DNA of 64,000 nt from Sipunculus nudus (taxonomy: Eukaryota; Annelida; Sipuncula; Golfingiida; Sipunculidae). This document shows positions 507 through 48,315 of the stretch, piece by piece. The DNA is taken from NCBI GenBank assembly GCA_026874595.1, contig CM049307.1, positions 46,497,678-46,561,677 of the forward strand, in the 5' to 3' direction. Numbering within the stretch: the first letter of the stretch is position 1; each line of letters opens with the position of its first letter. The translations under genes and the position numbers were made by a program. The notes beneath the pieces were generated by a model. It worked only from the letters and a program-made list of their open reading frames with translations. It ran no database searches and had not been told where the DNA came from.

Positions 507-3500
507 AATCATTTGGTACCTGGAGCCGTCAGTGCTGACAACCTTCTCTGTTCTGGGAATTATTATGTGTGCAGTGGACTTTGTAGTTCCAATGGTCACA
601 CCATACATCTTTAATTCTTCCCAGTGGTAAGTAAACTTTGTTTTGCGCATTAAATGGTTTGTTCCACCAGTGATGATATTGAGTCCACACCAAGGGAGTG
701 CAAGTATAAGTCGTAGCTCTTGAGGATTGAGTCTAAATCCACCTTTTTTGGGCCAGAGTCATCTGGAATCTGAGTCTGAGTCAAATAAAAATCTCTATAT
801 AAAAGAAATTAAAAGAGGACCTTTTAGCTTACCATAAGTATTTTTAGTATGTTAGTTTACACATGCCTTTTACTTTAGGGTTTGATTACATGAATTTAGC
901 TTCCAGTGCAGACCTAAAGCTTGGTATTTACAGTTTCTTTTATAATATTCTGTTAGTAGATCGCACATGTATATAAACGTCTTTATGCTATGTGACAGAC
1001 ATTTCCTTTTGCTGGACTCTGGATGGACACAGCCTGATTTCTCGAGTCCTTACATCAGAGTCCTCAGACTTGTGTTCTCCATCATTGCGTTCAACTCCAG
1101 TGTGTTGTATGTTATGTGTGAAGTATATATAGCTTTTTATATAAATAGCTGTGATTTCATGAAGAATTGTTTGCAGCCTTTTGCATCCTAAAAGGTGTAT
1201 CAGGATTGTGAAAATTGTGACTGTTAGTGATGATAAGCATGTTGAGGTCCTGTAGAATTAATTTTCTGTATGATTCAGTTCCATTTATATTCATAAAATG
1301 ATTTTGGGGCTTCAGGAACATGTGGGGGTAAGCGTGTGTGATGCTCAAAATCTAACTCAGACACTTGGTTCTTTGGGACCAAGCATGCCACCAGACACTA
1401 AAAATCATATCTGTTTGACCAAGAGAATCAGAGTTGGCTCTTGTAGTATTCACTGGCCATTGCAGACAACCCCAAAACACAGTTAATTGTGTAAACACTT
1501 GTTCTTACAACTAACCCTTCTATTTCAAATTAGTCAGATAATGTTACCATGACACAATATCCAATCATAAAATGATACAAAAATGATGTTAAGCTAAAAT
1601 TGATTCAATTTTACATAGTCCTACAAGATTTAACACAGATTGCCATTCCAAAATAACATTTTGCCTTGAAAGACCCAGATTCTTGAGATTTTCTTCCTAT
1701 TGAAAGCCTTTGGATTGCTAATAATATAAATTAAAAACTTTGATTATGAATGTGTTCCAGGACATCAGTGCAAGAGCATCAGTATGAGAACATCTGTATC
1801 CGCCTGTGTAATGCAAGAACACACATCCACAACCTGCGTGTCTTCCTGACACAGCTGAAGAATGACAAACCCAAAATGGTAAGTATCTGTGCGTGTGACA
1901 CATACATGAACTAATACTGTGGTTGGATTTTTGTTTGCACAGGTTTCATATTTTCATGAAGGGGAAATTATCATAAAATAATACTTTTGTGAATAGGTGA
2001 TGCTCTGCTAGGATCATGAAAATGGATCCCTCATGAAGCAGTAAAACGGTGAAAATTGTGATATATATAATATACACACATACACATCTTGTGGCTTTGA
2101 AGCCAACCAAAGCATATACTCTTGGAAACATCCCCCCCCCAACACACACACCGAAAATTTGATTAATTTTATATCATTTTAAAGCAAGCTTATATATTCC
2201 TTGCCCAGCAACAAGTCTACTAGTTATGTAATTTTCTTAAAACTGTTGCTGCTTGAGTAAACATGCCTTACCAGTGGCAAAAGAGTCCAGGAATCACATT
2301 ACTACCCCACATTCAGAGAAACCTACTTGGGCAAGATAGCTTTTCAAGTATTTTATCATTTGCTTCTTGAAAGGTCAACCTGACAAAAATTTTGACAAAG
2401 TGACTGATGTCACTGTATATCTTAATATATGTACCTCTCTCTCAGATGTAAGAATAGATGCTTATCTATGAATATAAGATATTCTATATTGTACCACTGA
2501 TTCTGGAGTTTTAACTAAACATGTGTGAACTGCAGTTTTTCAGTTTTTTATAGGGTATTATACAAAATAGAAGATAATGTTTTGATAAGTCATACTCTGA
2601 CTGATCTTTTAAAGGAGAGAAATGATTTCAAGTTTCAAAATTATTATTAAAATCATGGCATGACTATCTGTGAAATAAACAGTGAGTTTTATGTATAAAT
2701 ATATAGTCACATAACAATTCAGTTTACTTGACATAAATGTTCCTTATTAGAACTGTATTTTTTTTTAAAGCTAAACTTAATATTAAATGTTTACTTCACA
2801 GACAGTATACCCCCAAACTTCGGATAAAACTGGATAAAACCTGTTTTATCAGATCCTGATCCAGATATATCCAGTGGATTTAACCAACTGCAGATAAAAT
2901 GCCAACCCTGATTAATAATAATAGTAATATTTGGATTACCATATTCTAAAGAAGATTTTTTCGAATATATCCCATAAAAACAGGCTGTGATGTTAGTGTT
3001 GTGTGAGATATAGCGTACAAAATAGTGTTCTGACCCACTGCACTTATTTACAGTACCTGTTGGTGATGATGGGGGCCTTTGCTCTGCTGGCCTGGATAGG
3101 AAGTCTGATTGACAACCTGCTTCTTACATACCTAATGGGTAAGTACGCTTCTTCTTCTGCATTCCCTGCAATGCATACATTATGTCTGGTTTGGAAAGTA
3201 GGGCTTAGTCCCCAGTGTGCCAGTGTGTCTCCAGCAGTCCCATTGACTTCTCATTGACCTCCAAAGATTGCTAAGTTTGGAATCTTATGGTTTCAGATTG
3301 GCTGTTGAACCAAAGATGCAGCTGTGTACAAGAAGAGACTTGTCATTAAAAGAAGTATTTATCCCCAGACAAAGTCGGGATACTATGGATTGCCATAACT
3401 AAAGAAATGTTTCATGGATCTTTACCAAACTTGACATGTGCATAGATATGGGTGAGAGGACAAAGCCTATTTAAAATGGGGTCATGACCTTTACTAGGAG

Positions 3501-5177
3501 TTACCTTGACCTTGAATAGGTCCATTTTGGTGGAAAATCACACAAATTGTTAAATATCTCAAGAAATCTTGCATGGATTGACCAAAAAATCAACTTTACC
3601 AAAGTTCTGGGATAGTTTTGTCATGTACCAGAAACTGGTGGTGTCACCTTTTATTTTGTCCTTGACCTTGAATATTGACATATATGGTGATAATCACACA
3701 AAATCATAAATATCTCAATAAGAGATGCATGTATATTCTTCCAAAAATCAAATTGACCAAAGATCTTGGATAGCTTTGTCTTCTGCAGAAAGACAGGTGG
3801 GGCCACTTTTCGTTTTTGAGCCTTTTAATACCTCATCATTGCCACTTGACAGTACTGTGAGCATTATAAGTCTAAAACTAATGGACAGATTGGGCTGAAA
3901 TTGTGCATGTCCATTAATCTTGGATACCTCTATCTTGTATTCAAAACCAGTAGCGCCATCTGCAATTATTTAGCTGTGGCCTCCATCTGTACATGTGCTT
4001 TGGATGAAAATTGCTCATATCTCCAGAGTGGTTCATGGTATTGGTCTGAAATTTGGCATATATATCCATATTGGAAAGTTTTCTCGTAAACCAGACAGGT
4101 GGTGCCACCTGCCTTCCCGTTTTTGTAGAATAAATTTATGCCCTTTTCTGAGGAATGATTTGCCTATTGGCCTTAAATTGTATATATCCATATATCTTTG
4201 ACTCCTCCATCTTGTACTCAAGACTAGTGGAGCCATCTTCAAATGTTTTGCTGTGGCCTCCATCTGTACATGTGCTTTGGGTGAAAATTGCTCCTATCTC
4301 CAGAGTGGTTCAAGATAATGGTCCTAAATTTGCCATGTCTATCCATCTTGGAAAATTTTCTTGTAAACCTGACAGGTGGCGCTACCTACCTTCCCATTCC
4401 TGTGGGAAAAAATTCATGCTCTTTTCTTGGGAATGCTGTGTATTGGTCTAAAACTGTGCATGTCCATAGATCTTGGCCTCCTCCATCTTGTACCCAAGAC
4501 TGGTGGTGCCATCTGCAATTTCTTTTTGGTGGTGTCCATCCGTACATTTGGTTTAAGTGAAAATTGCTCATATCTGAGGAGTCGTTCAGTGTGTTGGTCT
4601 CCAATTCAGTATGTACATCCTTCTTGGAGAGTTTTCTCCTCAAGCAGACAGGTGGGGCCACCTACCTTACCATATTTATAGTATAAATTAATCCCTTTTC
4701 TCAAAAGTGATTCACCTTATTGGCCTGCATATTTGGTGAAAAATATTGTTTTTCAAGTTGATAGATGGAAGAAACCATAGTTGCTTGCCAAATGTCAGTA
4801 TATGCTTCTGAAGATGGGGGGGGGGGGGGCTATTTTAAAAGGGGGGGGGGGGGGGTTAATCATCTGGGGATACTATGGCACCTGAGGTGCCAAGAAATAT
4901 CTAGTTTTATTTGTAATTGGTTTCTGTGTAGCTAAAGTTTAATTCACCTTCCACATAGTAATTAATGAATGATAATTTTTGTGCATATCTAACCTAGGTC
5001 TACAGTTGTTAAATGTACATTGGTTGAGCTGCATGACACCTTTTTGTTTCAGTTGTGTTTGTGGTGATGTTGCCTGGACTAAGAAAACATGGGATCCTCC
5101 AGCGTGTAACAGGAACTCTGGTGGCCACGTGCAAGAACTTTCTGAACAAGCAAGGGCTTAAAGCTAAGAAGAAGTGA
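507..5177 (+). CDS. ARL6IP1: ARL6IP1 (ADP-ribosylation factor-like 6-interacting protein 1), C-terminal four exons
   Basis: Exons 507-626, 1761-1878, 3054-3138 and 5053-5177 (stop TGA 5175-5177) join in consistent phase with AG acceptors and GTAAG-type donors. They give the last 148 residues; the human protein is 203 aa. I recognise it by recall: the first exon reads IIWYLEPSVL (human IIYYLDPSVL), the second ends KNDKPKM (human KEEKPKM), the third contains DNLLLTYLM (human HNLLLTYLI) and the fourth LPGLRKHGIL (human LPGLNQHGII). The family makes two membrane hairpins that shape tubular ER and binds ARL6 and other ER proteins. The hydrophobic segments in exons 1, 3 and 4 fit this. The C-terminus is lysine-rich (KAKKK), as in the human tail. 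The roughly 55 N-terminal residues lie upstream of the window. Identity is very likely; it is not a classical reticulon because the spacing and motifs follow ARL6IP1. Confidence 0.95.
627..1760 (+). other. ARL6IP1 intron
   Basis: Intron between the first two visible exons. I see no coding exon, RNA gene or recognisable transposon in it; the short ORFs it contains have no family features. Confidence 0.8.
1879..3053 (+). other. ARL6IP1 intron
   Basis: AT-rich intron with GTAAGT donor and TTTACAG acceptor. A short C-run at 2132-2140 is the only notable feature. Confidence 0.8.
3362..4870 (-). mobile_element. Palindrome-array element, copy A (old), inside ARL6IP1 intron 3
   Basis: Termini TCCCCAGA (3362-3369) and TCTGGGGA (4863-4870) are perfect 8-bp inverted repeats, each flanked by TA (3360-3361 and 4871-4872), as expected of a TA-target DNA transposon. 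The left end folds as a small hairpin (TATCCCCAGAC / GTCGGGATA) followed by CTATGG, the same layout as copies B and C. The interior is a decayed tandem array: palindrome positions near 3797, 3949, 4099, 4226, 4376, 4501 and 4651 alternate at about 150 and 126 bp, giving a unit of about 276 bp. The palindromes have drifted (GTGGTGCCACC, GTGGGGCCACC, GTGGCGCTACC), so this copy looks oldest. Two poly(G) runs lie near the right end (4817-4854). No transposase ORF is present. The superfamily is unknown. Confidence 0.7.
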
Positions 5178-13439: not shown

Positions 13440-14400
13440 TACTATCATCAATTTCGTGTTTTAAGGTCCATTTGAGAACCATTTAACACCCATATTAGTG
13501 TGATCTTTTTAGCGAACCTGTGAGCTTATGCGATGGTGTGCCGTCTGTACGTTTACCCATACTGTCTCAAAATCGACAGGAGCTATCAACACCAAATTTT
13601 ATGCAATTATTCATCTAAAAAAACTATCGGATTTTGCTCATTTTTATAAATGCTTATTCTGCATATACTTAGATTTTATAGGGAAAAAGCGAGAAAAAAA
13701 TTTTAAATCTTCTTTTCCGAAACTGTCAATATGCCAAATTGTTCATTATTTTACAGGAATAATCTCTGAAATACTCTCTCTCAAGTTTGTTCAAATGGTT
13801 CCAGTTCAGTGAACTTTGGCCGAGTTACATGAGGCTGAACTTACTAAAATTATAATATTAGAAACGGCTGGAGCTATCTTCACAAAATTTTATGCAAATG
13901 TTGGTTACACGAGTCGTATATGAATTTGAGGAACTGGTGGCGCCACCTGGCATCGACCTTTTCTGTACGAGGTTCATCCGTCATTAGTAGATTAACCCAT
14001 GATTTCTCAGAAATAGCAGAACTTGCATCCCCAAAATTTATGCAAATATCTGTCACATATCAAATGTGGGATTGAATGTTTTGTGGCGCCACCTGCATTT
14101 GCTTACATTTTACTGAGAAAAAAAGCTTAAAATTTGACAAGCTTCTTCTCTAAAATCATGTTTTTTGGCTGTGTTATAGAAATTTTAACTTAGCCTTTGG
14201 TCAATTAAGCATACTAACATAACAATCTCAGAAATGACAAGAGCTAGCATCACAAAGTTTTGTGCAAATGTTGGTCATATGACTCCTATTTGAAAAAGAA
14301 GTTTTTGTGGCGCCACAAACATGTTCCTGTATTTTGTGGACAAGAACCTCATAATTTTAGCCTCTTCCAGTTTAAAAAATGGTTTATGATGAAACTATCA
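13440..14400. repeat. Diverged relative of the palindrome-array element (B')
   Basis: Three degenerate units built around ACCAAATTTTATGCAAAT-like and GTGGCGCCAC motifs. Palindromes lie near 13937, 14083 and 14306. The last is extended to a perfect 16-bp palindrome, TTTGTGGCGCCACAAA. I could not find termini, and spacing (146 and about 224 bp) is less regular than in copies A-C. Confidence 0.55.
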
Positions 14401-14420
14401 AGCTGAATCATTTAATTGTA

Positions 14421-15085
14421 TCCGCCAACACAGTTTTGCGGATGCTATGTTTTTGACCGGGTTCCGCCGCCGCCGCGTTCGTTTCCTGAGAACTCCTCTG
14501 AGACTACTGGACGGATTTTTCCGAAACTTACACCAATTATCGGGTCACATGTGAACTGGTACCTAACAATTGGCGTTGACCTCTGACCTTTCCTCCCTCC
14601 AGTGCGTCCATCTGTGCGTCTGTTTTGACACATTAACCCACATATCTTCGGACTCGTTTGACCAATCAGGAAAAAAATGATTGTACAAATGTAGCCCTTG
14701 GATAGCTGTATAACATACACAAGAAATGGTGGCGCCATAGGCAACCATGTTTGCACAGTGTCCATCTGTTCGTCTGCTTTGGGTTAAAATCACTCGTATC
14801 TCTGCAGTGGTTTGACTAATTCACCTGAAATTCGGCATGCGTATACATCCTTGATAGCTTTCTTGATTTTATGACAGTTGGCGCCACCTACATTCACGTT
14901 CATGCTGCAGATATCCATGCTAATATCTCCGGACAAGTTTGACGTATCTTCCTGAAGTTTTGCATGTGTTTGGATCTCACATAGCTCTTTATCATACAAG
15001 AACTGGTGGCGCCACCTGCAATCCTTTTTTGCACAGCGTCCACCTGTTTATAAGGTATACGCAAATTGATAGAGTTTGTTGGTGT
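14421..15085 (-). mobile_element. Palindrome-array element, copy B, interrupted by a hAT-type element
   Basis: The terminus TCCGCCAA at 14421 is preceded by TA (14419-14420). It is followed by the same hairpin and GCTATGTTTTTGACCGGG segment found, in reverse, at the right end of copy C. Palindromes at about 14729, 14878 and 15004 are 149 and 126 bp apart, as in A and C. The element is broken at 15085 by the hAT-type insertion. The sequence resuming at 15715-15722 does not lead to a recognisable opposite terminus, so the copy appears truncated. Confidence 0.7.
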
Positions 15086-17506: not shown

Positions 17507-19375
17507 CTATAACTTATACTTTTGATGAATAGCAAGCCATGCTTTTCCCCATAGGGTCTGCATAGGACCATCCTTGCATGCATATTTCGGTGTCATATAT
17601 GCAGATACAACATCTAGTTGATCGAGCCGGTCGGCTGCAAGGTACGTACGTTTGTATTTTTGCTCAGCCTGAATATGCACGGCAATGTTAGCAACCGCGG
17701 GTAGAACCCCATTTATAAACGCGTCTTCTATCCATAAAGTACGCGTGCGCGGGGCAACTTGTGCGAGCTTCATTACCATGGAGCCAGGCATACCGTACAA
17801 AAAACCAGAGCAATATGGAGGAAACCGTTCGTGAGGGTACTCTTTGTATGATAGATGGAAAGGGTTGTCTTTAGCTCTTAAGGGCACAAGGCCAGCCTTT
17901 ACCTTTTCTTCTCCGCATATTAACGTATTTCCGTGCAGAAATTTAAGTTGCGCCACCCGGTTGAGTAATTTAGGGGTGTTAATAAAAATATCATCATCTG
18001 TTTTCAACATGACTTTGGCATTTTTGCAAAACTCTGCCATCCAATACAAACCCATCAGTGTTTTGAGTGTTAAATTCCGGTAGGTGTCTTTGAAATCTTT
18101 CTGAACAATATCGTTATATTTCGCTTGTTCTTCATCAACCTGTTTTTGGACACTCGCATTGGTTGGAACACCGAGTAGAAATACCGTGGCGACAGTTATG
18201 CCCTTGAAAACACCTAGTGAGGACCAGGTATTTCTGATAAGTTGTCTCCGGTAGAAGTACTGGGGTGAGGAGATCACAACAAACACAACAGTAATATCCC
18301 TACCTTTGCATCTGTCCATACTGTTGTGTAAATATTTATAACGGGGTTGGTTGGTCCCAAACCAGTAATTCCTGTTGAATTCTTTATATCTTTCCCTCAG
18401 GAGGTTTTCCTGTTCATTGTCATGCAGTTTAACATTGGTTTTTGTTATATTTGCATGCTGGACAGGCGGGCTCCCGTTGGGTGTCCCTTCAACAACTTTT
18501 GATTCAGTTTTATTGGACGACGATCTTGCGTCCGATCTATTAATCGCTGTGAATTGTTCATTGTGTGAAATGACTGTTGAAGTAACGTTTGATTCAGCTG
18601 GCATGGTTTTGTCAGCTTGTATTTTCGTACTTGACAGTATTTCACTGGCCTCAGAGTCTATTGATTCATTATTTTGATTTACCTCAATGACCAGTGTCTC
18701 TTCCCTTTCAGCAGCTACTGTTGTGCCATCTTGTCTTTCTTTTGATTCCGTCAGAATTTGTTCTTCCGTGATAACACGAGGTGTTCCTGGATCAGTGGTT
18801 GTTATTTTGCTACTTTGCATTTTAGTAGTTGGCTGATTGTCACTTTTAACAGAAGTCCAAGCTAGTGTAGTTGCCCTTTTCTTGTCTGCTTCTATTACAT
18901 TTATTTTGGACGACTCAGATTTGTCATTTTGGCTTTCGATCGAGACCGTATCAGAGACATCATTTCTGTCCCTCTGTCTCTTTTCATTTACTGATATTTC
19001 AGTCGGTTTACTTATCACACTTTTGCCGATATTAATCTCGTTAGACGCTCTTATTCCATTAGTTCCGGCAGGCAAAATCTGGACACTCGGACTTTTCTCT
19101 GAGGCTTGTATTTCTTTCGTTACAACAAAAGCACCTTTGTAGTTCTGCGTCTCTTTAGCGGCAGGTATTTCATTTGCTTTAGCAGCCACGGTCTGGGCAC
19201 TCTGTCTTTGTCTTTCTTTTGAAGCCTGTAGGCCTAATCCGTCTGTTTTAATGGCCACCATGTTCTTGCTTTGCGATGTCTTATCTGTCCTCTTTGGCCA
19301 CGTGAGCGGGACGAATAAGACGCTACCTAACAGAAAGAAAAATAAAATAATAATCCTGATTATTTTCGGAGACAT
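17507..19375 (-). CDS. Beta-1,3-galactosyl/N-acetylglucosaminyltransferase, GT31 family, single exon
   Basis: A 622-residue intronless ORF. Residues 4-24 form an uncharged signal anchor after a short N-terminus, giving type II Golgi topology. Residues about 27-350 are a low-complexity stem rich in Ser, Thr, Glu and Lys with several N-glycosylation sequons. The catalytic domain spans about 358-620 with the GT31 motifs in order: RRQLIRNTW (376-384), VFLLG (398-402), DFKDTYRNLTLKT (427-439), KTDDDIFI (458-465; the Asp triad binds the metal-sugar nucleotide), FPPYCSGFLYG (518-528) and IEDAFINGVL (549-558; EDA replaces the usual EDV). The family transfers Gal or GlcNAc from UDP-sugar in beta-1,3 linkage to glycoprotein or glycolipid acceptors; donor and acceptor cannot be told from sequence alone. 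The stem is far longer than usual (most members total 310-420 aa). The ATG at 19375 directly precedes the anchor. Confidence 0.93.
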   Translation of the reverse strand: MSPKIIRIIILFFFLLGSVLFVPLTWPKRTDKTSQSKNMVAIKTDGLGLQASKERQRQSAQTVAAKANEIPAAKETQNYKGAFVVTKEIQASEKSPSVQILPAGTNGIRASNEINIGKSVISKPTEISVNEKRQRDRNDVSDTVSIESQNDKSESSKINVIEADKKRATTLAWTSVKSDNQPTTKMQSSKITTTDPGTPRVITEEQILTESKERQDGTTVAAEREETLVIEVNQNNESIDSEASEILSSTKIQADKTMPAESNVTSTVISHNEQFTAINRSDARSSSNKTESKVVEGTPNGSPPVQHANITKTNVKLHDNEQENLLRERYKEFNRNYWFGTNQPRYKYLHNSMDRCKGRDITVVFVVISSPQYFYRRQLIRNTWSSLGVFKGITVATVFLLGVPTNASVQKQVDEEQAKYNDIVQKDFKDTYRNLTLKTLMGLYWMAEFCKNAKVMLKTDDDIFINTPKLLNRVAQLKFLHGNTLICGEEKVKAGLVPLRAKDNPFHLSYKEYPHERFPPYCSGFLYGMPGSMVMKLAQVAPRTRTLWIEDAFINGVLPAVANIAVHIQAEQKYKRTYLAADRLDQLDVVSAYMTPKYACKDGPMQTLWGKAWLAIHQKYKL

Positions 19376-20017
19376 TATGCTTGTAGATTATATTACTGTC
19401 CAAACTGTTTAAATGTCAATTCTAAATATACAAGGATGAACAGGACACACATGCACCCTTAAAAATCACGAATGTCCATCATTGGTATATAAATCCGAGA
19501 TAACGTCAGTATTGATAAATTGTTCCACAAGATATACTTTCACTGTAAACTCTCTTTAGACTTGTCAGTGTATTTCTTCTCCTTGTAACTACACCGTATG
19601 CTTTCGCGTATAATCTGCGCATAAAGGTTGCCTACGACCAAAACCTGCCCTGCCCAAGTTTATTCAAACTCACTGATTCCTCTATTTCATTGCAATATCT
19701 TTCCGTTGTAAAATCTGTTTAACATCCCAGATTTCCTTCCCGTGAGCAAATGAAATGCTTTCCTTCACATATACTCTGCACATACAACAGGACATAACAG
19801 ACGGCTTCACAAGGTTTATTATAAACTGATTCGTCCGTTCCACTGCCGTACAGTGCAGAGCTGACCATATATACTTGTTGATTAAAATATCAATACCACG
19901 GCACAGCGCTACATTCAATATATCACCATAAGCCAGTATTGAGCAGCCAGATTTGGTCCATTAGAGATGATCCGAAACTGACCTTCCCTTTAAAACAAAA
20001 GGAAAGCTTGAATCCCA
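19376..20017. other. Upstream region of the glycosyltransferase gene
   Basis: Non-coding; the promoter is expected here because the gene is read leftward, but I can identify no specific element. Confidence 0.5.
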
Positions 20018-22839: not shown

Positions 22840-24053
22840 TCAGAGTGGCTTTATTTTTAGTATACCTCGAGATTGACCAAGGACCTACAGGGATATTAAT
22901 TAGGATGTTTTTAGCGATAACAAAGTGAACCTTGTTAACAACTGACTGCCCTTACAACTGGCAAGCAGTAATATCTGAGTACAAAAATACAATACAGGAT
23001 TGCGTAAAAAAAAAAGAAAATGTAGATGGCACCACTAGTCATCTATAGCTGAAAGAGCTGTTCATGATCAATAAGCTTGCCGAATTTCAGAAAGATCCAT
23101 GAGACATGCAATTGTTACTGAGATATTTCATGTAAAGTATGAATTTCATACATCAACAGCTGAAAATGTTACCATTTTGTATTTGTGTCCGCAACAATTC
23201 TGAACGACTGGCTGGGCCATTCTTTATTTTTTATGTTAAGAATGCTATATGTGCAGATAATGTACAATGTTTTAGTTTTAGGGCAAAATTTTTGATTTGC
23301 AGCCCAGAAAACTAACAAAAGTTTATTTTTTTATTGGTACGTTAGGATATTTACCGGGGACCTACCTAGATGTCAAGTTAGAAGTTTCTAGGTCAACCGG
23401 TTGCGATTTGTGCCTTGTTAACAGCTGGCCAGCCGTAATTTCTGAGTACGCAAAAAAAAATACAATAAAGAAATGGGTAAAATAAAGAAAATGTAGATGG
23501 CAACACCAGTCTTCTATAGCTTATAGGGCTATCTATGATCAATAAGCTTGCCAAATTTCAGAAAGATCCATGTGATCAATACTGAAGTATTTTATGTAAA
23601 GTATGAATTTCATATATCAGCAGCTGAAATGTTAAAATTATTCAATTGTGTCCGAAACATTTCTTAAGAACTGGCTGGGCCAATTTTCTTCATTTTTTTT
23701 TGCTTGGTTATAATGTAAAATGTGCAGTTGATGCATAATATTTTAGTTTTGGAGTTGAGTGCAATATGTTTGCCTTGCGGCCCAGAACACAAATACAGTA
23801 TGATTTTCTAAGTGCCAAAAACACACAAAAATGCGCGGTACTCGCAATATATATAGGTCACAGTGACCTATTTTTGGTACGAAAGGCGAATAACCAAGGA
23901 CATATCATTATTTCAAGTTAGAAGTTTCTAGGTCAAACGGTTACGATTTGTGCCTTGTTCACGTAAGGACAGGCGGATGGACGACCGGACGGACGACGGG
24001 CAAAGGGTGATTGCTGTAGCTCAGATGAACTATAGCCAGCCAAGCTAAAGGAG
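22840..24053 (+). repeat. Two-unit interspersed repeat ending in a GACGGAC tail
   Basis: Two units about 471 bp apart share GAAAATGTAGATGGCA (about 23016 and 23487), ATCAATAAGCTTGCC and TTTCAGAAAGATCCATG. A third partial unit leads to GGACGACCGGACGGACGACG and then TAGCTCAGATGAACTATAGC (24016-24035), an end resembling those at about 29464 and 47896. No ORF. Confidence 0.65.
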
Positions 24054-27605: not shown

Positions 27606-29491
27606 TGGACCTGTGGGTCACGGCGCTCAGCTGAAATTGATTCTGAGAATATTTGTATAAAATCCTAGCGGTTGTGTTGACTGTGCACTTTTATGGACTA
27701 CATGAAATGTGCAGGAGCCTCTCATGATCACAAACATGTACATTGTATTTGTAAAAGTTTCATTATTTCAACAAGGTGACTGTAATAAGCACGTTTATAT
27801 TTCCACTTGGAACATAGAAAACCTGCAAATTATAGAATAATGGATATGAGCCGAAGCATAATAATACACATTTAATTTATATGTGAAATTAAATGCTGTT
27901 AAAAAATACTTTTCCTTTTTCAAATTTTGATAAGCGATTTAAAACAAGCCAGTTAATTAGGAATACATTGCATAATTTATTGGTATATCAATTTTTTACA
28001 TGGACAGTTTTTACCATATTCATTTTTTTTTATTTACAAATTTTTTAAATTTGCATTAAAAAAATTCTGAAAATATAAGTCAATTCAGAATCGTAAGTTG
28101 CATCAATATTTACCCTGAGTGTGGCTCACATCAAGTCAAATTTTTCATACATAAATATATTTTATTGTTTTTTAAATAAAAAAAATAAACTGAATATAAA
28201 AGATTTATTTTTTAAAAAATCACTAAAAAACATATAGCATTTTTAGGATTCCTCTAACAACACAAAACATGAGCGAGAAAAGTTCTGTTTTAACTCAGCA
28301 TATTGGTTACCCCTCTGCATTTTTGTTGAATTTCTGAATACAGGCATGGCTCCAAGGGTTACTGAACGCAGCCAACTTGTTAGCGATACAGGAAATAACT
28401 CGTTGCCATATAGAGGGAGTTTCAGTTTTGGGTGTGGGTTCACATGTATTCTCTTGTGTCAATTCATCATTCGTAGCATACTGGTAAGATTATGGGCTGT
28501 TTATGAATGCAACCATTGTGATGCATTCCTCGATATTGCTTGTATCACGACTCAAGTAGGCTTACCAGCCCAATTGTCATTGCCTACTGAGTCGGGATGT
28601 CATGGCTTATCTCAGCTATAATGTAATACTGACATAAATATTCAATTTCACACATTGTGGGTACATAGGGAAAGCCTAATTAAGCTGAGCCAAGGGAGAT
28701 GCCTGAAGTGAAGCAGTTACATAACATAGGTGAGGCTGCATCTCTCACTGCAGACCACTGGGCTAGGTTGGCTTGATGTAAATAATAATTGATATGGTGT
28801 ATGAAAACGTGTAAACAAGCTACCCTTTTCACCAATTCCTTTCAAATTTTATATTTTTTTTAGCTTTAAACCTTATCTGTCCATCATGGGAAAATAATGG
28901 TGAACGTACATAGAGAAAAAATGTGCCTTAGTCAAAGTTTGGCAAAATTTAAGGTAATGATTTAACATTTATGCTTATACTTTAGAAAATTAACAAAGTT
29001 TTTATCTAATTTCTGGCATACAATTAAAACTCAGTTTTATATAGATATAGGTTTGAAATGAGCTCTCTAGCTAAATAAATTATCATGTTCAGTGAGAAAA
29101 TATATTTCCTGATTTTTGACAAAGTGCATTATATTTGGGCCCATAACTTCAAAGATTTACTCAATATTGACCTAATTTCTGGCATGTACATAGGAAATAT
29201 ACGCAGGAATGGTTATGTCAAATATAAAATAGATTAATAACAGCAGTTTTCATAATGGGCAGTTTTGAAGTGTAACAGTACATTCTTACTGGAAAACAGA
29301 ATTTACCTTAATTTCTACAAAGAACTAGGTTGCAATGACCCAGTTTCAGGTCTGGTAGGAGAACTTAGGGACATCTAACTCTATGTCGAATTTTGGATTC
29401 ATAGGTCTAATGGTTTCACAACGTGCCCTGTTAATGATTTGACAAAGGACCATCACTTTAGCTCAGATGACTTATAGTCAGCTGCGCTAAA
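27606..29491 (+). repeat. Interspersed repeat family E, copy 1
   Basis: Begins GGACCTGTGGGTCACGGCGC (about 27608) and ends TAGCTCAGATGACTTATAGT...GCTAAAA. The same start and end enclose the larger copy at 43383-47932. The ends share an inverted GCTCAGCTGA/TCAGCTGAGC-like core. The interior contains TTCTGGCATGTACATAGG-type motifs shared with that copy. No coding capacity. Confidence 0.6.
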
Positions 29492-30821
29492 AATGGTCCT
29501 TAATACCCTACCCCCCTCCCCCACCCCACAACTCCTACACACAAAAGCTTAAAAGGATGATTGGAGCATCTCTTTACTGACAAATAGAAAAATTGTCAAT
29601 TTTGGTTGCAGTCATGATGGACTTGCAGAAAACACCTGTATCTTTATAAAATGTTATATCATACGTATTATCATTATGTAAATTTTTTTCGTATTCTGAT
29701 TGAGGCTGAGGTTGGCAAGTTTTGAGCCAATAATGAATATATTTGGAATAACAACACGTATTTTATAAATACTGTGTGATTTAATAAAACAAAATAAGAA
29801 ATATAACAAGCACATACATACCTGGTTAGCATCATTACCTGGAGTACATTTACCAGGGGAAAAGGCAAGCTAGTTTAATTAACATTAAAGACCAGGTAAA
29901 AAGAGCCTGCTCACAGAGCAGCAGGTAAACATTCATTACTACCTATTAAATAAAAGGTACATAAACATTTACAATAATATGTGTAGTATCCCATACAATA
30001 AGTTCATTTTAGCTTAATACCACAGTTGACTTCAAAACAATCTCAGCATATGGACATGCCATCTCAAATTCACTAGTTAAATACGTTGTTGTGATCCTGT
30101 CCACTGGTTACCATGTCAAGACGGCATCTCTAGAAGTCCAGCAATAACTTACAAACAAGGAGAAGAAAGATTAAAGAAACACAGAAGAAACACTGCTTTG
30201 AAGCTTAAAAAGTTTTGATTGCAAATTGAAGTTGAGTGGTTGGCCACCAGATGACATGTGCTCTATATGTGTTTTACGCCATTGAGTGTGCCTGATGCAA
30301 GCTTATTTCCACTCATGTAGAGGAGTAAGCAAACGGTTTGAGATGGAAATATTGGCAGATACCATAATGACTGTTACATAGGAATATTTGTAGACTATAT
30401 TTTTTTAAATCATTTATAACAGACATGTATATATTTATATCATAAATATTTATAGATTTGTGGTTTGTCAAAGTCTCTTTCACACCCTGACAAATAACGT
30501 AAAATTAAGCCTTGTTCATTACATGGTACTCATCACATGTTAGACACCGTACAGAATTCAAGTACACTGCACTTGAGATATACTGTAGTGGCAGCCTGCC
30601 ACCCAAATGTCAAATTTAAATTAACTGAAGATCTTGGGTTGGCAGTACAAGCTATTGGGTTCACATCAATTCTAGTACATGCAGATGTGCTCGCCATTTC
30701 TAACAGTCCTTTTTCATTTTCATCTGCTTGTGGAACTATCATTTTACCGAAGTAAGACATTAAGTGACGTTATTCTGTCGGGAAAACTAGAATACGGGAA
30801 GTCGACACGCGACTACGTGTA
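29492..30821. other. Intergenic DNA
   Basis: A C-rich patch at about 29510-29530 and otherwise AT-rich DNA with only short ORFs. Nothing recognised. Confidence 0.55.
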
Positions 30822-33129
30822 TCCGCCAAAATCAGAGAAGGACGGGTGAAGTGAGGCATGGATTGAGTGGCAAGGGGAAATAGAGTTACAAGTGTTACAT
30901 ATTAGAATGGATCTCTGCCACATAAACATGATTGTAAGTGGCGCCACCTGTTATTTGAACGAGAAACTATCTAAGATGTATACACATGCAAAATTTCATG
31001 TGGAAAAGTCAAACCACTGCAGAGATATGAGTGATTTTATCCCACAGCAGACAAACAGATGGACGCAGTGCAAAAATGGCTGCAGGTGGCCCCACCATTT
31101 TTGTGTATGTTATAAAGCTATCAAAGGGCTACATTTGTGTAATTTTTTTTCCTGATTGGTCAAACGAGTCCGGAGATATAAGCATTAATGTCTGCAGCGT
31201 GAAAGTGAATGTAGGTGGCGCCACCTGTCATAAAATCAAGAAAGCTATCCAGGATGTATACGCATGCCGAATTACAGGTAATTTGGTCAAACCACTGCAG
31301 AGATATGAGTGATTTTAACCCAAGGCAGACAAACAGATGGACGCTGTGCAAAAATGGCTGCAGGTGGCGCCACCATTTTTGTTTATGTTATAAAGCTATC
31401 AAAGGGCTACATTTGTGTAATTTTTTTTCCTGATTGGTCAAACGAGTCCGGAGATATAAGCATGGATGTCTACAGCGTAAACGTGAATGTAGGTGGCGCC
31501 ACCTGTCATAAAATCAAGAAAGCTATGCGGGATGTATAAGCATGCCGAATTTCAGGTAATTTGGACAAACCACTGCAGAGATATGAGTGATTTTAACCTA
31601 AGGCAGACACAGATGGATGCTGTGCAAAAATGGCTGCAATTGGCGCCACAATTTTTGTGTATGTTATAAAGCTATCCAAGGGCTACATTTGTGTAAATTT
31701 TTTTTCCTGATTGGTCAAAGGTTCCCGAGATATGAGCTTGGATGTCTGCAGTGTTAACGTAAATGTAGGTGGCGCCACCTGTCATAAAATCAAGAAAGCT
31801 ATCCAGGATGTACAGGCATGCCGAATTTTAGGTGAATTAGTCAAACCACTGCAGAGATACGAGTGATTTTAACCCAAGGCAGATGAACAGATGGACACTG
31901 TGCAAACATGGTTGCAGATGGCGCCACCTTTTTTTGTGTATGTTATAAAGCTATCCCAGGGCTATATTGGTGTAAAAAAAATTTTCCTGATCGGTCTAAC
32001 GGTTCCCGAGATATGTGGGTTTATGTGTGGAAACAGACGCACAAACGGACGCTGGGCAGAGAGGAAAGGTCAGAGGTCAAGGTCACTTGGTTAGGCGCCA
32101 GTTCACATAAAATCAAGAAAGCTATCCAGGATGTATACGCATGCCGAATTACAGGTAATTTGGTCAAACCACTGCAGAGATATGAGTGATTTTAACCTAA
32201 GGCAGACAAACAGATGGACACTGTGCAAAAATGGCTGCAGGTGACGCCACCATTTTTGTGTATGTTATAAAGCTATCAAAGGGCTACATTTGTGTAATTT
32301 TTTTTCCTGATTGGTCAAACGAGTCCGGAGATATAAGCATGGATGTCTGCAGCGTAAACGTGAATGTAGGTGGCGCCACCTGTCATAAAATCAAGAAAGC
32401 TATGCGGGATGAAAACGCATGCTGAATTTCAGGTAATTTGGTCAAATCACTGCAGAGGTATGAGTGATTTTAACCTAAGGCAGACAAACAGATGGATGCT
32501 GTGCAAAAATGGCTGCAGGTGGCGCCACCTTTTTTTGTGTATGTTATAAAGCTATCCCAGGGCTACATTTGTGTCAATTTTTTTCCTGATTGGTCAAAAG
32601 GTTCCCGAGATATGAGCTTGGATGTCGGCAGCATTAACGTAAATGTAGGTGGCGCCACCTGTCATAAAATCAAGAAAGCTATCCAGGATGTACAGGTATG
32701 CCGAATTTTAGGTGAATTAGTCAAACCACTGCAAAGATATGAGTGATTTTAACCCAAGGCTGATGAACAGATGGACACTGTGCAAACATGGTTGCAGGTG
32801 GCGCTACCTTTTTTTGTGTATGTTATGAAGCTATCCCAGGGCTAGATTTGTGTAAAAACTTTTTCCTGATCCGTCTAACGGTTCCTGAGATATGTGGGTT
32901 TATGTGTGGAAACAGACGCACAAACGGACGCTGGGCAGAGAGGAAAGGTCAGAGGTCAAGGTCACTTGGTTAGGCACCAGTTCACATGTGACCCGATAAT
33001 TTGTGTAAGTTTCAGAAAAATCCTTCCAGTAGTCTCAGAGAAGTTCTCCGGAAACGAACGCGGCAGCGGGGGCGGCTTCAGCGGAACCCGGTCAAAAACA
33101 TAGTATCCGCAAAACTTCGTCTTGGCGGA
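30822..33129 (+). mobile_element. Palindrome-array element, copy C (youngest, apparently complete)
   Basis: Terminal inverted repeats TCCGCCAA (30822-30829) and TTGGCGGA (33122-33129) are each flanked by TA (30820-30821, 33130-33131). Near the right end TATCCGC and GCGGATA (33104-33131) form a hairpin. The interior is a tandem array of a ~277-bp unit with two palindromes GGTGGCGCCACC per unit: one series near 31213, 31491 and 31768, the other near 31085, 31362, 31639 and 31917. The array is itself duplicated: 31231-32107 and 32108 onward repeat with a period of 877 bp. Units are about 95% alike by eye. The unit length is not a multiple of three and frames do not persist across units, so it is not coding. 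No transposase. I do not recognise the family; the TA target and short TIRs are compatible with a mariner-like or related DNA transposon. Confidence 0.78.
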
Positions 33130-34813
33130 TATAATTAATAAATATTACATTCATGGTTGACTTACATATAATCATTTATGCAGCAGTTATTTATAATGAG
33201 GCTGATTTTACTCGGAAAGTTAGTCTCTGCATCAGTCATGATGGCTTGACAGCTTTCAACAGTGCAAATTGGTGCCATAGGGAAGACAGGAGGTATCTTA
33301 TGTAATAAATTTTGTGTAACAAATTTTTTCTCTTCATTATTTAGCAAATATAGCATGACCATATGGAAAATACTACAACACAGCAAATATTTTGATCTGA
33401 CCCTTAGAATGGGTGTTATATTATGACTTGCATCATGACTCACTGGCCCCTATCAGTTATTTTAGAAGGCCTGAGTGTCATGTTGTCATGGCTAGAAATA
33501 CTGTGGTTGGTTCTTTGCTTGTGAGGGTTTTTTAAATGTATAATATTCATGAAAGGGAAATTATCATGAAAATTAATTCAACATTCATTCATAAGACATC
33601 CCATTTATACAGGTCATTATAACTTGAGCTGCTTTAGCACCCAAAGTACATTATCTATGCCTGCAGCACTGAACATCAAGAAGACTGATATCAAAACTAG
33701 ATGAAGTTGCATTTGCTTCAGCAAATACAAAATGCACCCCATTGAGAGCAAATCCAAGGGGTACTGCACATACAATGATAATTAAGTCCAAATAATGGCA
33801 ATGCATGTACCGTTTTTCTGACCTCCAAAGTCCCGGGGGTACATTTCCTCAACAAAAGCTCAACATCTGGCTGGAAGATAAAATCGGGCTTGAGTTGCTT
33901 GGATGTTCTCAGTAGACTAGGACCCCCCCCCCCCCTCCCCCTTCCAGACTAGACTGGTATCTGCTCCCGAACACACTACAATGCACACTGTAATGTGACA
34001 CTCAGACCAAAGGTGAAGGGGACATTAAAAGTGGTAACTTTCATACATATCCCACGGCTTTGTATAATTCTGATCAGCATGATAATGATTAGGACAACAA
34101 GTAATATTGTGTATTGTCCAAGGTTCAGACATCCTTACAATATGCTTTAACTTCCAGGTATTTTATTCAGCTCAGCAGTATCTGATCAACATGTTGCAAA
34201 TAACTGAAGACATAAAACTTTAAAGAACTGTAACTAGATCATTTACCATTGATCTGGCCAATTCAGTAAAGGTTGCATTTATATATAACCATGCAAAAAT
34301 GCATCTGTTATATTATATTATTACATGTATCTGTATTATCCAAGTTCACTTACATTGGTGAAACACTGTAGAAATAAATGGCTTTTGGTTTATCTTATTT
34401 TACATTACTACCTATCTGAGGGCAGGTTCAGCCTTTACAAAATGAACTGAGGCACAAGGTCAAAATCAAAGGTATTAAGTGCAAATCTATGGCTGTCGTT
34501 CAACTGAATATCTATTGGTGATAAGCATGTCTCACTATTTTGATGAAATCAAGATGCTGTTAAGGGACAGGATTTTAACACATGAAACCAAGCTTACACT
34601 CACAGTAACCTTATCAGTCAATAACCATATATATCCACTTCAAATGCCTCATATCAAATAACTAAATTTATTAAAAAATAAATAATTTTACAATACATAA
34701 ATATCACTATATCCCTTATCAGATTCAAGCTCTACTACTAAGCATAACTATTCATGTTGAGAATAGCTCACAAAGCCAGTTTGCATAATTATCATGAAAC
34801 ATGCATAGTAGAT
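33130..34813. other. Intergenic DNA
   Basis: AT-rich, with a C-run at about 33923-33940. No gene or named repeat seen. Confidence 0.55.
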
Positions 34814-43800: not shown

Positions 43801-46800
43801 TCTCTTAGGTCTTGACAAGGTACATTATATTGATGCCCACCACGTCTACATATTACACAATATTGACATAATTTCTGGCACGTACATAGGTAACAAACAG
43901 TTATACAATATATAAAAATATGATTCAACTTGTTCTCGTTTACTGAGGCTGACATTGGGATGGGGTTCGGAGAAGGAAACAGTGTGGAAACAGCAAGGAG
44001 GGTTGGATGTAGAGAGAAAAGGAGATAGAGTGAGAGGGACGGAGCATTCAACAGTACTTGAACACCTGGACGGTTAAAATCTAAAATATTATGAAATGTA
44101 AATAAAGTCTGAGAGAAAGAGGTAATCTAGGCTATGGTTGGTTGATATGATTGAAGAAATTGTTGCAAATAATATTTTAAGATCTGACCTTGCGTTTTCA
44201 TTGGATACCTTTTTGACAGGCTGTTGACAGTTCAACATTTTACACATTTGTCTAATGAGATCCAATTTTTTTTAATTTAAACTTTAATTAAACTTTTTTT
44301 TCTATTTTATGATATGTATACAGTTGCTATAAAATCCCCACTCCACAGGCGGAAGGACTTGATGGAGGGGGGGGGGGGGGGGGGTTACGATGGGAGTTAC
44401 AACGCCTCTGTCTCTCTGTATATATTTTCTTCAAATTATTAAATTTTATGCTATAGCAATAGCACTATTGTTGACAGTGCGAAGGAGCAAGGACTTAGTG
44501 GGGTGGGGGAAGGGGATGGTGGGAGTTACAATACCTTTGCATATACGTACAGGATATGAAATTTAATTAATTAGAGCTTACAGGAAAAAAAGTTTATTCA
44601 TAATTATTAAATATTTAAAACAGCCAGAAAGCTAGAGAAACAAAGCAAATAATTTTAATTCCCATTCTTCTGAGCCAGGAAATTATGAACAATTTTTACA
44701 TAAATTCCTTTTTTTATAACATCATTTTTTTCCAGGTTTGAAAATGTAACTATACATTTAGAGTATAACATATATATGTGAATATTTCAGTTGATTCACA
44801 TTTCTTAATTGCATCAACATATATATCTAATAAATTAGGTTTATGGTACCTCTCAACAGAATGGGGTGGAGGGAGGAAGGGAGGCATAGGGGTGAGAGAG
44901 AGAGAAAGAGAGAGAGAAAAAGAGAGCTAGAAAGAGAGAAAGGGAAAGAGAGAGAGGAGAAAGGCTCTCTGGTAATTACTGCCTGACCCAGCCTGACCCA
45001 GACACTCACAGAAGCAGTAGGCAAGGAGTGAAGGTGTTATGTAACAGCCTGGAACACTGTTAACCAATGACTTGATGTAAACATTCAAGACATGGTGCTA
45101 TAAATATGGGTCACTGTGCTCAGCTGAAGTTGACCTTGAAAGTAAAATCTAAAATAATAATGGAGATCAAGTCTAAGAGGAAAAGGTAATATATGCCATG
45201 GCTGGTTGACATGATTGGTTTGTATTGATGAGTGAGAAATTGTTGCAAATAATATTTTGTGACCAAACCATGGATTCTCTAATGTCAAAATTGAAGCATG
45301 TGAGCAGTTTGTGAACATAAGATGTATATTATTACCATGATCATTGGCTGGCTTTTTGATAATTTGTTGACAGTTCAGTAGTTTACACATTTGCTCAATT
45401 TGATATATTTTATATATTATTAAATATATGTATTTTTATTTTATAAAATGTATACAGTTGAAATATAACTGATGTCTCCAGTCCCCAGATGCAAGGACCT
45501 GGTGGTGGTGGTTGGGGGGGGGGGGGGGGGGGAGGGCTGGAATGATGGGAGTTACAACATCTCTGTATTAACATAGTGTATATACATATAGGATTTCCAC
45601 TTAATTCAACAATACTTACAGGATTAAATAGTTCATTCACAATTACATAATATTTAAAAAAGGACAGACAGACTGTTAGACAAACAAAGCTGATAATATA
45701 TTTTAATATTTTAAAGTTTTTCATCTGCAATATTACACATCTGAATACATAAATTGCTTTCAAATTTCAGACTTTAATGGCTTAAATCCATACACATACA
45801 GCATATGAAAGTTATTTCAACAGTGCTTAAAGGAAAAATTTCATAATTAGTATATATATTTAATGATAATTGAGAGATGATTGACAGACAAGAGCTGATC
45901 ACTTTATATTCCATTCTCCTGGGGCAAGAATATGTTTCAATATTAGATCTTAATGTTTTCTAATCCAATTATCTTTCAAATTGAAAAAATTGTACACATT
46001 TGCAATAATAACTAATGTCCCAGTGCACAGGTGACAGTGAGGTGCTAAGGATCAATGACAGCCGGGGGGGGGGGGGGGGGGGAAGAGATGGGATTAACAA
46101 CACTTTTGCATAAACATTCAGGGCAAACAAAGCCTGATCTCCATTTCTGCTGAGGCTCGAAAATAATGAACACATGTTTGTATTAGATCCTCATTTTTTT
46201 ATTTTAATTTTAATTTGTATACATTTCCAATATAACATATATTTCTGAATATAAACGTTGATTCATAATTCTAAATTGCATCATCATAAATCTCAATCTT
46301 GTCATGTAACACCACATCATGCAAACAAATGTATATTTATATATTCATGGGGGGGGAGGGGGTGTGATATGAGAACAATTGTACACCTGTCACAGCAGGG
46401 GATCTCCCCCAGTGACTGAAACAAATCAGGAACCCTGGCATAGCTGACTTCCAGTGACCTGGAGTGGCCTACCTGCATCTGGAACAAAGCAAGTGACTAC
46501 AATAGAGCCTCAAGATAAAATTTAATAACTAGCCTAATTTTCAACCTTTTAGTTTCAAATTTCAGATTTAAACACATTAAATACTTATGTTTACATTCTG
46601 AGAAAATTAAATCAACAGTACTCACAGGAAAAAAATTTGCCATGGTCAAAGTTGGGTAAAATTTCAGGTATTGATTTTATGTTTATGCAAATACCTTATA
46701 AAATTTACAAAATACAGATCTAATTTTGGGTATATTATTGAATCTTAATTAAACAAAGTTATATACTTGAAAAAAATTCTCTAGCTTCAATAATTTTCAT

Positions 46801-48315
46801 GTAACCTGAGTAAATATTTTTCCTGATTTTTTACAAAGTCAATTTTGTTTGTGCACATAACTTAAAACAATTACGCAATACTGACATCATTTCTGGCATG
46901 TGCGTAGCGAATGTATAGAAAAATATGTATATTATATATGATCAAAGTCAGATCAGTGGTTTTGATACTAGGCAGTCCTGAAGTGTAACAAAGGGTTTTT
47001 AATGAAAAAATGAAGTTTTTCATTAATATCTCGAAGGAATTAAGTTCTGGTGACCAAATTCTTGGCATGGTAGGGGATTTTGGAGACATCTTACTAAATG
47101 CCTAATTTAAGGAACTTTGAGCTGAAGCTGGGGAGCTGAGCTCTAGCAAACTGCATAACACTAGGTTGATGTAAACAATATGTGACATGGTGCTTGAAAA
47201 CTTGAATAAAATCTACAGTTTTTGATCAACTGGTTTCAAATTTTAAATGTTAACAGTTGAAATGCTAACAAAAACATGCTTTGAAAATTAAATCCACAGC
47301 AGTTACAGGAAAAAAAACGTGCCATGGTCAAAGTTGGGCAAAGTTTAAGGTACCAATTTTTTATTTTTGGTAATATTTTAAAAAATTTAAAAGATTTTGA
47401 TCAAATTTTGGGTATATAATTTAATTTTGATTAATAAAAGTTATATTACTGGAAAAAAAGTGCTTAGCTTTAACATGTTTTGTGTTAAGTGATCAAATTT
47501 TTTTCCTGATTATTTACAAAATGCATTATGTTTGGGCCCATAACTTTTTTAAATTATATAATACGGACCCAATTTCTGGCATGTACATAGGAACTATATA
47601 GAGGATTATTTATGGTAAATATGAGGAAAAACAGATGAGTGGTTTTGATATTAGGCAGTCCTGAAGTGTGAAAATAGGATTTTCATAAAAAATTGTGGTT
47701 TTTCCTTAATTTCTCAAAGGAACGAAGTCGCAAAGACCCAGTTTTCGGTTTGGTAGGAGATCTTGGGGATATCTAACATTATGCTGAATTTTGGATTCCT
47801 AGGTCTTACGGTTTCAAAACGTGCCACATCTACGGACGGACGGACGGACGGACGGACAGACAGACGGACGGACGACGGACAATGGACCACGACTATAGCT
47901 CAGATGACTTATAGTCAGCTGAGCTAAAAAGACAACTTAGCCGGACAAGTTCGAGATAAGATTTCTGTTAAAGATCAAAGTTTATACAGGCAATGACAGA
48001 CACGTTTAACACGAGGAAGTAATCCTCTTCAGATCTATTTTAAGAGAGCTGATTCCATATTTGGACCTGAGATAGCTTAACTTATCATTCAGACAAATCA
48101 TGTTGCACTGATCAACTCTCATATGAAACTTCAGGGCATTTGCAGATTTGTTTACACCGTAAATACCCTTATTATCGCTATCGCCTACCTTTGGCCTCTA
48201 ACACCAAGACGTTCAAGCCGGGGTCTTTTTTCAGCAAGTGAAATGCTGCAGCCAGTCCCGAGATTCCAGCCCCCACCACCACCACATCCGCATCCATCTC
48301 CCCCTTGTCGGTCAT
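34890..48315 (-). CDS. Monoamine-oxidase-like flavin amine oxidase, 11 exons, complete
   Basis: Exons (minus): 48315-48189, 42383-42296, 41731-41557, 41280-41166, 40607-40447, 39978-39889, 39497-39410, 38995-38895, 37280-37101, 36483-36296, 35181-34890. All introns are GT-AG and phases agree, giving 1605 nt and 534 aa (human MAO-A 527, MAO-B 520). Residues 11-49 form the FAD dinucleotide fold (VVVVGAGISGL, then EAKDRVGGRT). Also seen: GGQWVGSTQ (MAO GGSYVGPTQ), NCGGQEFK, FKEPFWRDRG, Lys308 (MAO-B Lys296), Trp406 (MAO-B Trp388) and HFAGTE (440-445). A C-terminal hydrophobic helix (about 505-526) matches the mitochondrial outer-membrane anchor. Gly415 and Pro416 replace the flavin-linking Cys397 and cage Tyr398, and Phe453 replaces Tyr435. 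It is probably a flavoenzyme with non-covalent FAD oxidising amines; the substrate is unknown. The 5.8-kb first intron is filled with repeats. Confidence 0.93.
36056..36369 (-). repeat. 168-bp tandem duplication covering the 3' part of MAO-like exon 10
   Basis: Copy 36224-36369 includes the last ~75 nt of exon 10, its donor and adjoining intron; copy 36056-36200 repeats it with a period of 168 bp. The outer copy keeps an open frame (CPVSIGTTGTMTSWVPGLRF) and an intact GTGAGATA donor. It encodes Cys (TGT) at the position of Gly415. An in-frame AG at 36214-36215 could act as an acceptor, but it is weak and would omit the first part of exon 10. Confidence 0.85.
38379..38748 (+). mobile_element. 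Short Helitron-like element in a MAO intron
   Basis: Begins TCTATATACTATTAAAATTG followed by GTCTGTTTGTCC, the usual 5' end style of animal Helitrons. It ends CTAG (38745-38748) just after a GC-rich CGGGGCCCC segment able to fold. It lies between A (38378) and T (38749), the Helitron target. At 370 bp it has no coding capacity, so it is non-autonomous. Confidence 0.7.
43383..47932 (+). repeat. Interspersed repeat family E, large copy filling MAO intron 1
   Basis: Starts GGACCTATGGGTCACGGCGC and ends TAGCTCAGATGACTTATAGT. Inside are at least four units with AAGGACYTGGTGG-like sequence, a long G-run (about 44368-44384, 45516-45532, 46064-46081, plus a broken one near 44500) and GATGGGAGTTACAAC. 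A second pair of ~660-bp units (about 46530-47190 and 47190-47820) carries CATGGTCAAAGTTGGGYAAA and TTTCTGGCATGTRCRTAG. A (GACG)n-type tail lies at about 47833-47877. A GA-rich microsatellite lies at 44895-44960. No ORF of note. Confidence 0.6.

Follow-up and report, generated by a model that had tools for sequence, protein, structure and literature searches.

Transposons of the Helentron/HINE type are described as carrying a 5' subterminal inverted repeat (subTIR) with a complementary inverted repeat (IR), often a central array, and a 3' subTIR with a palindrome, and as using TT sites (PMC4067079, PMC7492417). In the HINEs of C. gigas, the subTIR and IR lie at the left end and the subTIR and palindrome at the right (PMC7492417). 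Oysters are well known to have HINEs that contain satellite-like arrays (PMC11136912, PMC12628747), and DTC84 is a pearl-family element of Donax trunculus (PMC5139131). Here we describe three elements, named A, B and C, from a 64,000-nucleotide stretch of the Sipunculus nudus genome (GCA_026874595.1, contig CM049307.1, positions 46,497,678 to 46,561,677), which is referred to as the window and whose internal positions are used throughout. A preliminary description of the window had presented them as TA-flanked elements with terminal inverted repeats (TIRs) and a regularly spaced 12-bp palindrome, of unknown superfamily. C, B and A are very probably rolling-circle transposons of the Helentron/HINE (pearl-like) kind, non-autonomous and with a satellite-like array inside. 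HINE-type elements with paired-repeat arrays are already known from clams and oysters, and the family described here is largely ordinary.

Layout and ends of the elements

Element C covers positions 30787 to 33134 on the minus strand and is a full HINE, with its 5' end at the high coordinate and its final CTAG at 30787-30790. The 5' subTIR TATCCGCCAAGAC and its complementary IR (33104-33131, minus strand; dG -5.8, z -3.2), whose core reads TATCCGCCAAAAC-GAA-GTTTTGCGGATA in the family version, make up what had been noticed as a hairpin at one end. The former left "TIR" is the 3' subTIR, TTTTGGCGGATA on the minus strand (30820-30831), and is followed by the palindrome AGTCG-CGTGT-CGACT (30800-30814, minus strand), 9 nt ahead of CTAG. 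In genome copies this palindrome mostly reads GTAGTCG-CTTGT-CGACTAC. Between the two ends lies the central array (30937-32808, minus strand) of alternating monomers of about 149 bp (L) and 129 bp (S), with a GGTGGCGCCACC-like palindrome at the start of each. The full copies thus show a 5' subTIR with complementary IR, an array, a 3' subTIR, a palindrome and CTAG, at WTT sites, and this layout points to the Helentron/HINE type. Judged by it, the superfamily that had been left unnamed is placed as Helentron/HINE.

Element A (3358-4904, plus strand) belongs to a second family, of Helentron type like that of C, with a TATCCCCAGAC subTIR and a diverged array. Its 5' subTIR and IR read TATCCCCAGAC AAA GTCGGGATA (3360-3382, plus strand), and its 3' end (4863-4904, plus strand) consists of the subTIR TCTGGGGATA, the palindrome TGGCACCTGAGGTGCCA (4876-4892) and, after a gap of 8 nt, CTAG (4901-4904). 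The terminal hairpin stands for C but is weak in A (dG -3.7, z -1.0). Element B (14416-15050, plus strand) is a relative of C, truncated at its 3' side. Its 5' end, TTG TATCCGCCAACAC..., is intact, and there is no right terminus at 15085, the similarity to C ending at about 15050. The 8-bp termini once thought to be common to the three elements are therefore not shared: TATCCGCCAA (at 30820) and TTGGCGGATA (at 33122) are both present only in C, the right end is absent from B, and the termini of A are TCCCCAGA/TCTGGGGA (likewise given as TATCCCCAGA/TCTGGGGATA) and not TCCGCCAA. The internal unit of about 277 bp, on the other hand, was confirmed by alignment as common to A, B and C, with 81-89% identity between B and C (matches of at least 244 bp) and 64-73% between A and C; C has the opposite orientation to A and B. 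A 3'-end pattern (a stem of at least 5, 7-13 nt, then CTRRT) occurs at five places in the window, on both strands, against a mean of 2.8 in 20 shuffles, and two of the five directly follow the 3' subTIR of A and that of C.

The host assembly (1.4265 Gb, 153 contigs) was then searched with the 5' end of C, which gave 1,819 first-look candidates, of which 40 were scored, all with at least 90% identity. Twenty copies (ranks 2 to 21), fetched by best 5'-end match, formed together with C a sample of 21. The exact 5' core, in its family version, occurs 1,677 times in the genome and is directly preceded by TTG in 1,634 cases. The exact family 3' 43-mer, from which C's own 3' end departs by point changes, occurs 940 times and is followed by TT in 926; reversed controls gave 0 for both words, with and without these neighbouring letters. 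In the sample, the 5' core is present in 21/21 copies, with TT before it in all and G in 20 (TTA in one); the base ahead of the TT is A in 17 and T in 4. The 3' end, reaching 33 bp past the outer TIR to CTAG, is present in 19/21, as is the 3' subTIR together with the palindrome near the end, and is followed by TT in 19/19 and afterwards by mixed bases. Among the two others, L016 is without the 3' end and L022 diverges past the subTIR. These genome-wide copies bear out the earlier claim of a mobile family and display the TT target preference. They do not place its termini at 30822 and 33129: since TTG stands before the 5' core and 33 conserved bp ending in CTAG lie beyond the outer TIR in the 940 exact copies, the TA lies inside the element and is no target duplication.

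The corresponding search for A gave 2,874 first-look candidates; 40 were scored and ten regions taken. The full A-type 3' end, TCTGGGGATACTATGGCACC..GGTGCCAAGAAATATCTAG and then TT, was found in 4/11 (A, L072, L074 and L078), with two or so letters altered in L072 and L074. As the sequence past A's 3' subTIR recurs, slightly altered, at the 3' ends of L072, L074 and L078, A's right end is real. The 5' end had no clean match in L073, L074, L075 and L077.

The closest described counterpart is Cg_HINE of Crassostrea gigas (PMC7492417), which in the published description has, as here, a left subTIR with IR, a right subTIR with palindrome, a short satellite-like array of fixed orientation and a TT preference, with no target-site duplication indicated. 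It differs in a distinct microsatellite-like stretch built mostly from 4-nt units (PMC7492417), in contrast to the short CCG run seen here, which lies at 14464-14477 in the 5' flank of B, recurs in the 5' flank of an older copy (L062) and is degenerate in C. Pearl-family elements and bivalve HINEs have a microsatellite segment on one side of their tandem repeats; C has the array, and no microsatellite was scored in it. Compared by description, the elements studied here also differ from Cg_HINE in their dimeric unit of about 280 bp and their conserved TTG...CTAG ends (PMC7492417).

Spacing and order of the array

With up to two mismatches, the window contains 27 occurrences of GGTGGCGCCACC, the shuffle mean being 0.41; weak extra sites are excluded from the window spacing lists that follow. 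Successive palindromes are 148, 129, 149, 129, 147, 129, 149, then 323, then 129, 149, 130 and 149 bp apart in C, 159, 153, 149, 128, 149, 127 and 149 bp in A, and 149 and 128 bp in B. The single 323-bp interval of C (31917-32251, minus strand) is explained by duplication of the subterminal segment inside the array: it contains a copy of this segment, which recurs up to 32987 (BLAST, 87% over 1,260 bp between the stretches). This interrupted array holds 13 palindromes at up to three mismatches. Intervals of 149 (59 cases), 131 (42), 148 (16), 130 (10) and 129 (8) are the most frequent in the 19 full copies, with 112, 128, 132, 134, 138, 142, 146, 147, 323 and 588 as exceptions; values of 271-283 are an artefact, caused by a spurious site near the 5' end. 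The number of palindromes per copy (up to two mismatches) is even, from 4 to 14, in 20/21 copies, and is 5 in L016. On contig C1, 99 intervals separate the first 100 exact palindromes, and 52 of these are below 700 bp: 17 are L and 14 S in length, 4 are dimers, 3 measure 420-435, 7 measure 330-342 and 7 have other lengths. The alternation of about 150 and 127 bp, claimed for the three elements, thus holds in C-type copies and elsewhere in the genome. It varies in the A-type family, where part of L072 shows 148, 129, 139, 133 and 147 bp and no palindrome was found in L073.

The lengths of whole elements follow the same unit. Among 40 elements paired from the first 100 listed 5' and 3' ends, 33 fall within 25 bp of 279-bp steps, against 7.3 expected, and one falls at a half-step, on a ladder that was fixed after the lengths had been seen. 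By the sequence comparisons, the unit of about 280 bp is an old dimer of one monomer of about 140 bp, since the monomers of the older copy in L062 match both consensus types. Its first monomer (S type) scores z 9.7 against consensus L and 15.4 against S, the second (L type) 14.2 and 5.6, and the third (S type) 7.9 and 10.2. The spacing of about 150 and 127 bp derives from this dimer, its halves being unequal in length. Copy number in the array shifts in steps of a whole dimer, and slippage or unequal exchange is the most likely cause. The palindrome is the junction motif of the monomer. The best match in the dimer to the CENP-B box was 7 letters.

Homogenisation of the array, which had been suggested, is unsupported for the young copies. 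L monomers lie at 0.028 from monomers at the same position elsewhere (10 elements with equal arrays) versus 0.100 within the element (all elements), and the nearest neighbour shares the position in 37/40. For S monomers the values are 0.060 (13 elements) versus 0.093. These distances indicate that the array is inherited as an ordered block, clearly for L and more weakly for S monomers. The original study of DTC84 reportedly found a fixed order of repeat variants, which resembles the fixed L order seen here. DTC84 differs in having an AA target and a microsatellite segment.

Several comparisons weigh against this account of the array. Between the consensus L and S bodies there is only a weak resemblance (z 3.4, reached by 4/1,000 shuffles), with a pairwise identity of 0.61 against 0.60 in shuffles. 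The nearest neighbour of an S monomer shares its position in only 9/39 cases, 28 being mixed, and the order is less clear. The L monomers of A match those of C (z 10-14), whereas the S monomers of the two elements do not match (z 0.0 and 1.6), so that shared descent of the whole dimer in A and C is only half shown.

The window holds other repeats as well. Directly ahead of B (13842-14316) there are three palindromes at distances of 146 and 224 bp, whose bodies show no clear relation to L or S. At 23001-23600 lie two monomers (GATGGCACCACTAGTC...) that have diverged strongly and bear weak similarity to the L consensus. A 280-bp tandem unit of 1.9 copies, without the palindrome, is found at 61845-62381, its dimer-like period being probably a coincidence.

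Abundance and possible role of the palindrome

The exact palindrome occurs at 111,729 sites in the genome, against 14 for the control, and a further 45,683 sites are one CpG step away from it. The best-kept 12-mer class of the L body, with one body word counted, has 43,502 sites (controls 280). At equal conservation, and with two palindromes per dimer, this word predicts about 87,000 palindromes, so most of them are explained by the arrays. The palindrome count is thus mostly accounted for, and a special constraint is not demonstrated by it.

The 12-mer is also found in a third repeat type, seen in L081 (C1:475700-477200) and L082 (C1:869500-870900), with 336-bp monomers that contain one GGTGGCGCCACC each. 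The body of this monomer aligns significantly neither with L nor with S (z 0.9 and 0.2). An ACGG run followed by an AGCTCAG...CTGAGCT hairpin closes the array in L082, which is a pearl-type end. Such pearl-type ends would by themselves suggest a bivalve as host. The same layout, an ACGG microsatellite and then a hairpin, TAGCTCAGATGACTTATAGTCAGCTGAGCTA, occurs in the window at 47832-47926.

Protein binding by the palindrome had been put forward as one possible role. Selection of the palindrome as a binding site, whether for a factor of transposition or for a protein of the host, CTCF for instance, with the spacing serving it, would account for the identical 12-mer in three repeat types, one of them with a non-aligning body, and for palindrome columns of 0.97-0.99 in the C family against a body mean of 0.93. 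Moreover, (C/T)AGGTGGCGC fits the YAGRKGGCRS part of a CTCF consensus (PMC6746451), and is present on at least one strand of every C-type consensus palindrome and in most 336-bp copies. The idea is nevertheless unlikely. Of the 111,729 palindromes found, the arrays alone predict about 87,000, CpG-decayed sites are plentiful, and the CCAS part of the CTCF motif has no match. Some windows in the C-family bodies are equally conserved (21 and 6 of 126 in L, 0 and 16 of 108 in S), and in six A-type copies the palindromes score 0.80 and 0.83 against 0.83 for the rest. Protein binding may still apply, but the 12-mer count and the A-type alignment weaken it. In the literature, the 12-mer led to one listed paper, on a chitinase. 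Single-strand folding of three palindrome contexts is weak (dG -2.3 to -5.1). A stronger version, in which GGTGGCGCCACC (the ACAGGTGGCGCCACCTG box) would be a functional box, a palindrome bound by a Helentron replication factor or resembling a CTCF core on one strand or on both, is improbable; this box would have been retained by three or more HINE families with separate ends and drifted bodies and so have come to about 112,000 sites in the 1.43-Gb genome. The binding-site ideas, CTCF included, are leads only.

Insertion sites, classification and the autonomous partner

Joined flanks of 19 copies were compared with the fetched genome regions and the window. Element-free sites aligned through the junction for three of them (L014, L028 and L010), two cleanly. 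The site for L014, GCGTAA^TTGTTTTAAG, is found in the window at 46771-46976 (minus strand) and matches nearly letter for letter round the junction. That for L028 matches L003 (90% over 200), L067 (77%) and two places in the window (74% and 72%), all joined at A^TTT. Neither TA nor a longer target duplication was seen at the L014 and L028 sites. The window stretches that served as element-free sites (28800-29193, 46512-46976 and 47195-47659) are related repeats resembling the flanks of L014 and L028.

The window alone had suggested a canonical Helitron, with 5'-TC, a 3' hairpin plus CTRR and insertion at A^T, and the 3' traits of such elements are indeed found here: a palindrome about 11 bp from the end, shortly ahead of CTRR as in the Helitrons described (PMC4067079), with 8 (A) or 9 (C) nt between hairpin and CTAG and a T after it. 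The A ahead of TTG in 17/21 copies would fit as well. This reading is unlikely all the same, and was dropped, as the genome copies keep TTG: the conserved sequence begins at TTG, outside TATCC, so that the 5' end is not TC, and the 5' subTIR with IR, by which the elements also differ from canonical Helitrons, is a Helentron/DINE-1 trait in the cited account (PMC4067079). The elements may still insert at A^T, their ends being 5'-TT and 3'-CTAG, as in the proto-Helentron of Phytophthora infestans, for which the same ends, insertion between A and T and no target-site duplication are described (PMC4067079). That element is a coding one of about 14 kb, unlike the non-autonomous elements with subTIRs and array studied here.

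A stand-alone satellite DNA merely caught by transposons could explain why one palindrome occurs in several repeat families. There is little chance of this, given that in the 19 full C-type copies the monomers share one orientation and about 93% identity to the consensus, that the array lies between the same ends, and that L monomers keep a fixed order. A TA-targeting TIR transposon, that is, a Tc1/mariner-like miniature inverted-repeat transposable element (MITE) with 8-bp TIRs and TA as target duplication, has in its favor the TA that flanks TCCGCCAA and TTGGCGGA in C and likewise the corresponding ends of A, but is scarcely credible and was rejected on the genome-copy ends given above, with TTG before and CTAG after, the 940 exact 3' ends among them, and on element-free junctions without TA. 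Genome copies lacking TA-duplication termini, which the preliminary description had named as evidence against itself, are thus what was observed.

The Helentron/HINE assignment, too, has observations that count against it. The C-type sample was chosen by 5' match, and young intact copies are over-represented in it. To the right of the junction, the L014 match extends for only about 26 bases, the flank comparison of L019 is gapped and ambiguous, and L010 matches L028 2502-2701 (93%) at a site, AAA^ATATAG, where TT is not seen. With TT on both sides of the insertion, a 2-bp TT duplication is indistinguishable from Ts owned by the element. Finally, no matching ends were found in the flanks of two Rep loci (both sides, 28 kb), and mobility is deduced from the copies and their sites.

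Under the Helentron/HINE assignment, a Rep/helicase from an autonomous relative elsewhere in the genome would nick the TTG and CTAG ends, the element would then be copied by a rolling-circle route, and the array would be carried along as an ordered block. The genome contains at least 143 matches to PF14214 (Helitron Rep; of 195 candidates, 150 were scored), many of them in long open frames, which reach 2,426 aa, and 14 control genomes gave none. At one of these loci, L062, the older complete C-type copy mentioned above (about 2480-3340; C17:35634480-35635340) lies in the same orientation as the Rep frame. The 2,342-aa open frame starts about 1 kb downstream of this copy, and the Rep domain within it about 4-5 kb downstream; given thousands of copies, this proximity may be due to chance. 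No match was obtained in the phage collection, none of three exact patterns sought was present in the viral contigs, and no Rfam entry reaches its gathering score within the window. The window also contains a 626-codon open frame with a Galactosyl_T domain (17507-19387, minus strand; E 5.4e-42).

Taken together, these features present a clear case in which the length of an array steps by whole dimers and its order is inherited with the transposon. The subTIR that had been mistaken for a TIR is a misreading that an automatic MITE caller could make too. The defined ends (TTG...CTAG; TTGTATCC...CTAGTT) provide a handle for seeking the autonomous partner.
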